Shown here piece after piece: positions 25,766-27,700 of a stretch of DNA of 36,792 bases. The position numbers and the translations under genes were made by a program. The notes beneath the pieces were generated by a model. The model worked only from the letters and a program-made list of their open reading frames with translations. It did no database searches and was not told the origin of the DNA. Position 1 is the stretch's first letter; the number at the start of each line of letters is the position of its first letter. Source of the DNA: Methanobrevibacter sp. (GTDB lineage: Archaea > Methanobacteriota > Methanobacteria > Methanobacteriales > Methanobacteriaceae); the NCBI RefSeq assembly GCF_017410345.1, contig NZ_JAFQQZ010000022.1, forward strand, positions 1 through 36,792. Reading direction: 5' to 3'.

Positions 25766-27700
25766 TTATACTGTAGAACAGTCTGCAGAATAATAAGATA
25801 ATAATCTTGCTATTTTAGCAACAGTCAATTCATCAATTCTTTTTTGACCACGAATCATTCTATTGAACAATTCATCTATAAACAAGTCTTCATTGGTAAG
25901 AATTACATTCAAGATAGCCAAGTCATCATTGACAAAACCGATAAGAGGTTCAATGTAAATTCCGCTGAATCCTTTATTGTCCAAGAAAATGGCCAAGTCT
26001 TCATTCAACTCTAAAGCCTTGCGTTTGATTTGACTGTTATCTACAAAATGAATCTCTTCATTTCCAAATTCGAATCTTGTCTGATCATCTTTCTTATCTG
26101 TTTGAAGCTCTAAGGTATTTTTCTTATCCATATAGTTTTGGATTGATGCAGAATCGTTAAGCATAGCATCTGTTTCACTGTCAGATTTTACTTTGTTTCT
26201 GTAATCTTTAGGATCATATCTTTTTGAAAGAATAGTATACACTCCAGTAGGTCCAACAACCACATGGTTGATGATATCCTTTGATTGCGGTGGTTGAACT
26301 GCATAGAATACATAGAAATCATTTGGAAGAGCAAGCAATCTTTCACGAATGATTCTTCCACGAGTGATATAATTATTGAAAGCATATTTCTTATAGATTC
26401 CGAAACATAAAATGAGAACACCTATGGCAACACCCACCAATGCATACCATATTTGACTGATGAAGTAGTAATAAGCAGCAGAAACAACTAAAACAAATGC
26501 CCCTATCAACATATAAACATCAGCATAAGTTTTCTTAGGTTCATATGTCCTGTTCTGGGCTTTCATCAATTCAACAGTCTCTTGGGTGACCAATGCATCA
26601 TCTTCACTTGCAGTCAAGTTTCGGCTTTTAACGCTTTCTCCACCTTTTTTAATCAAGCGTTTTACAGAATTTTCCTTGAAATACTCCTTATCCATATCTC
26701 TAATGAAATCATCTTTCATAATGTCGGATAAGGCAGTGTAATACTTATAGCGTGCAAGCTTATATGCTTCATATTCTTCAGGACTGTCAAAGACCATTTC
26801 ATTCTGAACTCTTGCAAATAGCTTTTGGTCTTCCTCTGACAATTCCTGTCTAGCTAAAGAGACTGGAGATTCAGGCATTTCATCCTCTGGAATATCTGTA
26901 ACTTCAACTAGCCTGATTTCTTCTCCCTCATATTCCTCTTCAGGATATGCAAAACCAGACTCTATATCTCTTGAAGTTTCCATATACCTTTGTTCGGCAT
27001 GAATAGGAATAATCTCATCGGTGTCTCCAAGTGAAGAGTCATATATTGAACCATAGGAAATCATTTCCTCTTCTTCATAAGATTCCAAGGTATCAGGCAA
27101 GATTTCAGTTTCATAATAATAGTCTTCTTCGGAATAGTCCTCATACTGAAGACCTTGTTCCGCATGTATAGGAATGATCTCATCAACTTCAGAATCATCA
27201 TATTGTGCATTCAATTCAGCATGGATAGGAATGATCTCATCTTCACTGGAATCCATATAGTATGAATCATCTGCAAAATTAGCTTCGGCATGAATAGGAA
27301 TGATCTCATCTACACCATCATCAAAAGCAGCTTCATTTTCAGTGAGTGGGGTTTCTGTGAGTGGGTTGTCTATAAAATTAGTTGAAGTAATGGTTTCGCT
27401 TGATGCAGAGTCCATATTGGAAACATAATCTAATGATCCTCCACAGCTGTTACATTCGAATTCGTTTATATTGTCGCTTTCACTTAATTGATATTTCAAT
27501 CCGCAATTTGTACAGTATACAAGTACCAAATCAGAAGATTCCTGCGAATTAGAATCAGAGGAAACTTTTTCTTCATCATTTAAGAAGTTGTCTAATTCCT
27601 CCAGATTTCCAGAACAAACAGAACATTCAAATGCATTAATATCATCTTCATCATCAAGCTGATATTTTGCACCGCAGTTCTGACAAACTACCACTTTCAT
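25766..27700 (-). CDS. Zinc-ribbon, DEIIPIHAE-repeat, membrane and NERD-like domain protein
   Basis: An unusual 644-aa multidomain protein. The N-terminus has two zinc ribbons (CQNC...CSVC and CTNC...CNSC in the first 95 residues). An acidic, Tyr/Glu/Asp-rich region then carries four copies of DEIIPIHAE between about residues 130 and 236. A charged helical segment follows, then two membrane helices (MLIGAFVLVVSAAYYYF and WYALVGVAIGVLILCFGIY), and a C-terminal NERD-like domain with INHVVVGPTGVYTILSK. In that domain the usual Asp and Glu of the nuclease fold appear as Asn and Leu, so catalysis is doubtful. The ATG at 27700 is chosen because it directly precedes the first zinc ribbon and follows TAGGGAT; TTG at 27727 is the alternative. 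Function unknown; it lies among glycan genes but may be unrelated to them. Confidence 0.8.
   Translation of the reverse strand: MKVVVCQNCGAKYQLDDEDDINAFECSVCSGNLEELDNFLNDEEKVSSDSNSQESSDLVLVYCTNCGLKYQLSESDNINEFECNSCGGSLDYVSNMDSASSETITSTNFIDNPLTETPLTENEAAFDDGVDEIIPIHAEANFADDSYYMDSSEDEIIPIHAELNAQYDDSEVDEIIPIHAEQGLQYEDYSEEDYYYETEILPDTLESYEEEEMISYGSIYDSSLGDTDEIIPIHAEQRYMETSRDIESGFAYPEEEYEGEEIRLVEVTDIPEDEMPESPVSLARQELSEEDQKLFARVQNEMVFDSPEEYEAYKLARYKYYTALSDIMKDDFIRDMDKEYFKENSVKRLIKKGGESVKSRNLTASEDDALVTQETVELMKAQNRTYEPKKTYADVYMLIGAFVLVVSAAYYYFISQIWYALVGVAIGVLILCFGIYKKYAFNNYITRGRIIRERLLALPNDFYVFYAVQPPQSKDIINHVVVGPTGVYTILSKRYDPKDYRNKVKSDSETDAMLNDSASIQNYMDKKNTLELQTDKKDDQTRFEFGNEEIHFVDNSQIKRKALELNEDLAIFLDNKGFSGIYIEPLIGFVNDDLAILNVILTNEDLFIDELFNRMIRGQKRIDELTVAKIARLLSYYSADCSTV
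26993..27310 (-). repeat. Four 27-nt in-frame repeats encoding DEIIPIHAE
   Basis: Copies at 26993-27019, 27158-27184, 27215-27241 and 27284-27310 share almost the same bases (core AGGAATGATCTCATC on the plus strand) and encode the same nine residues. Spacing is irregular (23, 19 and 55 codons in gene order), and all are in frame. Confidence 0.9.

Follow-up and report, generated by a model that had tools for sequence, protein, structure and literature searches.

Why does an archaeal membrane protein carry the same nine residues, DEIIPIHAE, four times? The question is raised by a 36,792-nucleotide stretch of Methanobrevibacter sp. DNA (the window; contig NZ_JAFQQZ010000022.1, C22 of a 1.84 Mb genome). 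The sequence-only reading had described four exact copies there, encoded by near-identical DNA at irregular spacing, in an acidic, poorly conserved region between zinc ribbons and a membrane anchor, and had suggested that they dock several copies of one partner or are sites of modification or cleavage.

A repeated motif in the disordered linker of a membrane protein

The four copies proved to be exactly as described. They lie on the minus strand at residues 131-139 (27284..27310), 154-162 (27215..27241), 173-181 (27158..27184) and 228-236 (26993..27019), the last being the copy nearest the membrane, which could be aligned across the 11 sequences compared within the genus. The 27-nt copies are 24-26/27 identical in pairwise comparison, with one to three differing sites that are all synonymous, and their starts are 165, 57 and 69 nt apart. 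A degenerate form of the pattern matches four times in the window, whereas shuffles give 0.18 matches on average and never more than 2, and even a 5-mer was present four times in just 5 of 20,000 residue-shuffled linkers.

The host protein, which we call A, is encoded by 25766..27700 on the minus strand (644 codons). Its listed open reading frame begins at an upstream TTG (27727), and the N-terminal MK[VI]V.C..CGA kept among orthologues supports the ATG at 27698-27700 as the start. To order the domains, we combined the sequence with Pfam, an alignment and an AlphaFold model of moderate confidence (mean pLDDT 53, from a shallow alignment of 29 sequences). Two CxxC...CxxC zinc ribbons occupy residues 1-95 (27416..27700; pLDDT about 78; 78% identity within the genus), with a Zn_ribbon_4 match (E=1.5e-5) that stays below the Pfam cut-off. 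The repeats sit in the following linker, residues 96-285 (26846..27415), in which 30% of residues are D or E and identity outside the motif is 53% within the genus. Its pLDDT is about 27 (25-33 for the repeats themselves), with values mostly of 25-39 from residue 98 to about 280-285, so the linker is predicted to be disordered. A helical part follows at residues 289-354, and then a two-helix transmembrane hairpin at residues 392-455 (26336..26527), read from its hydrophobic sequence and from a pair of long helices (pLDDT about 61-85). The domain sketch of the sequence-only reading was therefore right as far as it went. To it we add a degenerate NERD-like domain of the PD-(D/E)XK fold after the hairpin, at residues 463-635 (25796..26314), identified by Pfam, alignment and Foldseek and with the catalytic D and E replaced, as well as the presence of the same motif in other proteins.

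The motif is conserved across Methanobrevibacter while its flanks drift

Orthologues of A are present in 33 of the 41 genomes of the first set searched; of the 139 genomes of the family, 112 have one. Across 15 Methanobrevibacter genomes (the window's and 14 others), A holds two to seven readable copies of the motif; some of the lower counts are set by fragmentary assemblies (completeness is 62-90% for several genomes), and pattern scans miss motif variants. Among the 63 copies, position 3 is always I and position 5 always P, position 6 is I and position 7 is H in 62 copies each, and position 4 is I or V. For the membrane-nearest copy, the core is 95% identical, as against 54% and 66% in the 20 residues on each side and 53% in the rest of the linker, and the Ile and Glu codons of the motif vary synonymously. 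Several copies kept amid drifting flanks is the pattern that had been predicted for orthologues. It also places the motif among short linear motifs, being conserved at the protein level above its surroundings and lying in disordered segments (by pLDDT in A; in the other carriers, acidic low-complexity segments judged by sequence only).

The further expectation that Methanobacteriales as a whole would keep the motif held for the 15 Methanobrevibacter species and failed beyond them. Strict DEIIPIH is missing from A of the congeneric genomes G001, G014 and G017 and of most other genera; in other genera the linker of A is shorter or different. Genus g6 has a near-identical motif in protein A, DDGYIYVDHSHDED. 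The linkers of the three congeneric proteins (L025, L026, L027) have another repeated motif, HEVE[IV][IVL]D, in up to three copies, for example HEVEILDSFV. Within this set, A of G001 also has the related DEIVVEHGV three times.

Could the repeats be a functionless outcome of recent local duplication in a low-complexity acidic linker? Duplication does make copies, since single species show local repeats with units of 12, 14, 17 or 23 residues, which raise the copy number there. The core is nevertheless kept across species with synonymous codon changes while the linker drifts, and it is found in unrelated proteins, which largely refutes this reading and leaves it highly improbable. Replication slippage within a single strain, which the sequence-only reading had named as a possible undoing of its case, does not by itself explain the copy number: the spacing is irregular (57, 69 and 165 nt) and copies occur in 15 species, even if local duplications do alter their number.

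We see next to no chance that the conserved entity is a DNA- or RNA-level element, for example a binding site within genes, of which the peptide would be a by-product. GAG, CCT and the last ATT are indeed commoner inside the motif than elsewhere (83 versus 30%, 95 versus 54% and 92 versus 49%), but the I3, I4 and E2 codons are as variable as baseline columns, the constant columns stay within the baseline range, and the carriers found all use the peptide-giving frame, in acidic segments. A DNA-level element was rejected on these grounds, codon bias being present and per-column conservation not above baseline.

The same core recurs in a second, unrelated protein

The motif was not limited to one protein. 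In the window genome, strict DEIIPIH occurs six times, four in A and two in a second protein, B, and in these two only. One further match to the search pattern lies outside an acidic tail, and the reversed control gave 0. B, found by the strict-motif scan (556 aa; contig C5, G000:C5:14135-15802), is 31% acidic and has one transmembrane hairpin and domains unrelated to those of A; no Pfam family scored above its cut-off. The gene lies between those for TFS and PCNA. A GINS-like gene comes after the latter, and the cluster also contains Csl4 and a gene resembling that of RNA polymerase subunit L (gene names here were assigned by reading the sequences).

B orthologues have DEIIPIHNEY before the hairpin and DEIIPIHSRL after it, a motif-bearing peptide of B being VDEIIPIHNEYRD. 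One to three copies are present, and the motif is found in every clade genome where B is readable (in G004, the PCNA contig stops before B, which is not covered there). Across 26 readings in B, three of which repeat one site, I3, P5, I6 and H7 are invariant. In G003, G011 and G013, the site after the hairpin has been changed or lost. The residues after the core are specific to each protein, AE in A and NEY or SRL in B.

Three side observations concern B. Its orthologues share a conserved hairpin loop, SSSDRVVDNVLSGE; weak homologues adjoin PCNA in other Methanobacteriales genera; and the preference for GAG, CCT and ATT in the motif copies of A and B may reflect descent from one DNA copy.

A wider form of the motif is found in further carriers

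We then scanned for the wider expression [DE]xI[IV]P[IV]H. In 19 genus genomes it matched 99 times and the reversed pattern twice; in the remaining 120 genomes of the family, the two counts were 51 and 26. When the fetched proteins were all reversed, the wide expression had 0 matches in acidic context; that set is enriched for true carriers, and the whole-genome comparison of 99 with 2 is the unbiased control.

The further carriers were found via the motif, and their tallies therefore count motif-bearing species. Those of the genus all bear it in acidic segments. A teichoic/galactan-type exporter ATPase has one copy, DDVIVPIHVQN, in two species. HdrC, assigned by TIGR03290 (235.6 bits against a cut-off of 160), has one copy in each of four species, reading EEVIIPIH, EDVIIPVH, EEIIIPIH or EDAIVPIH. 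The wide motif is also carried, in two species, by a membrane protein that has two helices and a weak TrmB-like match. The tail of a LolD-like ATPase, a protein with one C-terminal transmembrane helix and a possibly secreted protein carry it in one species each; these single-species carriers (the LolD-like ATPase and the proteins of G003 and G017) could be chance matches, the one from G003 being the possibly secreted protein. Encoded next to UvrC in genus g5, a DUF3320 protein contains DEDVIVPVHEQ, plus DDFIVVDH and DYIYVDHSHDD. The core thus recurs in non-homologous proteins, as is seen for short linear motifs (A, B, exporter ATPase, HdrC, LolD-like ATPase and DUF3320 protein).

Two of these carriers have further features of their own. 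In HdrC of this clade (L300, L351, L352, L350), the N-terminus is prolonged by an acidic stretch of more than 100 residues, which contains the motif. The g5 protein (L376) and its homologues combine a DUF3320 C-terminal domain with a long acidic tail, several DD[FY]I[IVY]VDH and one DVIVPVH, and the C-terminal third of L376 weakly matches the NCBIfam model for the anti-phage protein ProA.

Among the matches listed in a GTDB-wide scan for DEIIPIH, multi-copy occurrences in acidic sequence were found only in Methanobrevibacter A and B, while each of the other matches listed is single and the sequence around it mostly not acidic. The loci that share these repeats carry Methanobrevibacter names, including M. 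olleyae. A frequent match, DAIIPFH, was set aside: where it was read, in G000:C1, the protein is globular. We also rejected viral mimicry: DEIIPIH and two variant patterns gave isolated matches in viral contigs, those in frame being single and nearly all in non-acidic sequence. The repeat is real, conserved at the protein level and an instance of a wider Methanobrevibacter short linear motif that is apparently undescribed; our literature search found nothing on the motif and no paper on a docking motif in Methanobrevibacter.

A probable docking motif for a shared partner

The core occurs in disordered segments of unrelated proteins and is followed by protein-specific residues, which argues for a docking motif that addresses a shared partner. 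We consider it probable that DEIIPIH is a short linear motif by which unrelated Methanobrevibacter proteins bind one folded partner. The docking proposed by the sequence-only reading gains support here, as orthologues keep their copies and the core recurs in unrelated proteins, the latter being what a common partner predicts. In its wider form, the motif would consist of an acidic residue or pair followed by I-[IV]-P-[IV]-H, inside a disordered acidic segment. A groove of the partner may take up the hydrophobic IIPI stretch together with the invariant His, probably as an extended strand, with the acidic residues meeting a basic rim. As the two helices of the hairpin would leave the linker on the side of the membrane that also has the NERD-like domain, A could act as a membrane-anchored display, its two to seven copies on the flexible membrane-adjacent linker forming a multivalent array, presumably on the cytosolic face. 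The partner should be cytoplasmic, as HdrC and ABC ATPases are. If a single partner served all carriers, the outcome would be their gathering near the membrane. That AlphaFold leaves the repeats of A unordered is neutral for docking; against it, the carriers have no obvious common function, and strict DEIIPIH is missing from A in three congeneric genomes and most other genera.

One substrate motif in unrelated proteins would give the same picture if, in place of stable docking, the motif served an enzyme, either one that modifies the His or a membrane-associated protease that cuts there. The invariant His in disordered segments and the copies spaced apart are compatible with such a site. We nonetheless find it unlikely, since two to seven repeats per linker would be unusual for cleavage and the four hydrophobic positions are constrained as much as the His.

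For stable docking, one named candidate partner is SepF, with the motif imitating the C-terminal peptide of FtsZ and bringing its carriers to the division site. SepF of M. smithii binds the FtsZ C-terminal domain (CTD) NEDQLDDFIDGIF; the ligand, LDDFIDGIF, is extended, adds to a sheet and makes ion pairs through acidic residues (PMC8178401). The congeneric FtsZ C-termini read PLDEFLDGIF or SLDEFIDGIF. Like the motif, the FtsZ CTD is a short acidic-hydrophobic peptide on a disordered linker in the same organisms, and the variants SDDFIVVDH, SDDWIIPIH and EDDYIVPVH start much like LDDFI. In the LDD[FI][IL] half, which fills the SepF groove, VDEII and SDDFI/SDDWI/DDYI are partly similar. The likeness is nevertheless confined to the acidic pair and two hydrophobic residues. 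The GID-type or GIF terminal half is absent from the motif, which has P[IV]H instead, at an internal position, and DGIF holds no equivalent of P[IV]H. While the FtsZ CTD is present once, at the extreme C terminus, ends in Phe and has a known partner, the present motif is internal, repeated and spread over many proteins. Moreover, FtsZ itself is unchanged, both FtsZ and its CTD are kept in genera that have the motif no more often than expected by chance, and we know of no link between HdrC and cell division. SepF is thus an improbable partner. We also rejected the idea that the FtsZ tail carries the motif, since the CTD is a different peptide.

The tip of bacterial SSB offers another comparison. 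It has acidic residues followed by IPF, and one tail serves as a hub for several partners. The order of acids and then I-P-hydrophobic resembles our motif, but the SSB tip is terminal, bacterial and single per chain, whereas here one motif is found in many carriers, the reverse arrangement.

Returning to a shared docking partner, we can extend the idea, with more doubt than confidence, to a genus-wide recruitment code. One membrane-associated hub might read [acidic]-I-[IV]-P-[IV]-H and gather the pseudo-nuclease membrane protein A as a multivalent scaffold, the replication-operon membrane protein, envelope-polymer export ATPases and heterodisulfide reductase at one cell site.

To our knowledge, docking motifs are well mapped in eukaryotes and hardly at all in archaea. 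If it is true, the docking reading would tie envelope export and HdrC to a membrane protein of the replication operon in the dominant gut and rumen methanogens. HdrC acts in the last step of methanogenesis; were it truly anchored via the motif, this would bear on the cellular organisation of the methanogenic machinery.

The NERD-like domain of A has lost its active site

We further investigated the domain that follows the hairpin of A. Against the NERD family (PF08378), A scores 14.1 bits (E=0.067) and its g5 orthologue 19.4 bits (E=0.0015), both below the Pfam cut-off of 22.1 bits, while shorter zinc-ribbon/NERD proteins of the same order reach 84.4 and 88.4 bits (E=1e-23 and 5.6e-25). Foldseek with the model of A gave weak matches, none below E=0.26, several of the top ones being PD-(D/E)XK nucleases. 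A PDB sequence search with a canonical zinc-ribbon/NERD relative gave no match, and our literature search found nothing on NERD combined with zinc ribbons in archaea.

In the alignment, the PD-(D/E)XK signature IDH...ETK of the order-level zinc-ribbon/transmembrane/NERD relatives is not kept in A, which reads INH...LSK, as do most genus-mates. The NERD-domain proteins L033 and L034 resemble A in the order of zinc ribbon and transmembrane hairpin and in an alignable domain; they keep the D and the ExK signature and lack the long acidic linker, whereas in A the catalytic residues are gone and the linker bears the repeats. Judging from these sequences, A most likely derives from a nuclease-type membrane protein whose catalysis has since been lost. 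The domain is 92% identical within the genus, and since such conservation persists despite the loss of the active site, a non-catalytic role is likely.

Such a domain, conserved as a binding module would be after losing its catalytic residues, might itself read the motif, so that A would self-associate and recruit B and the other carriers. The genera with the motif or a variant of it (g1, g5 and g6) all have A. However, A with the same domain also occurs in a genus whose motif matches do not exceed chance (g18), and in the AlphaFold model the repeats, at pLDDT 25-33, are undocked as far as confidence from a shallow alignment tells. We rejected intramolecular docking in A, its repeats not being ordered in the model, and regard the NERD-like domain as a very unlikely reader.

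Two g19 orthologues of A retain IDH and read TQK in the second part. Across Methanobacteriaceae, the active site therefore shows a stepwise loss, from IDH/ETK in the order-level relatives through IDH/TQK in g19 to INH/LSK or similar in the rest (L270, L271, L033, L034).
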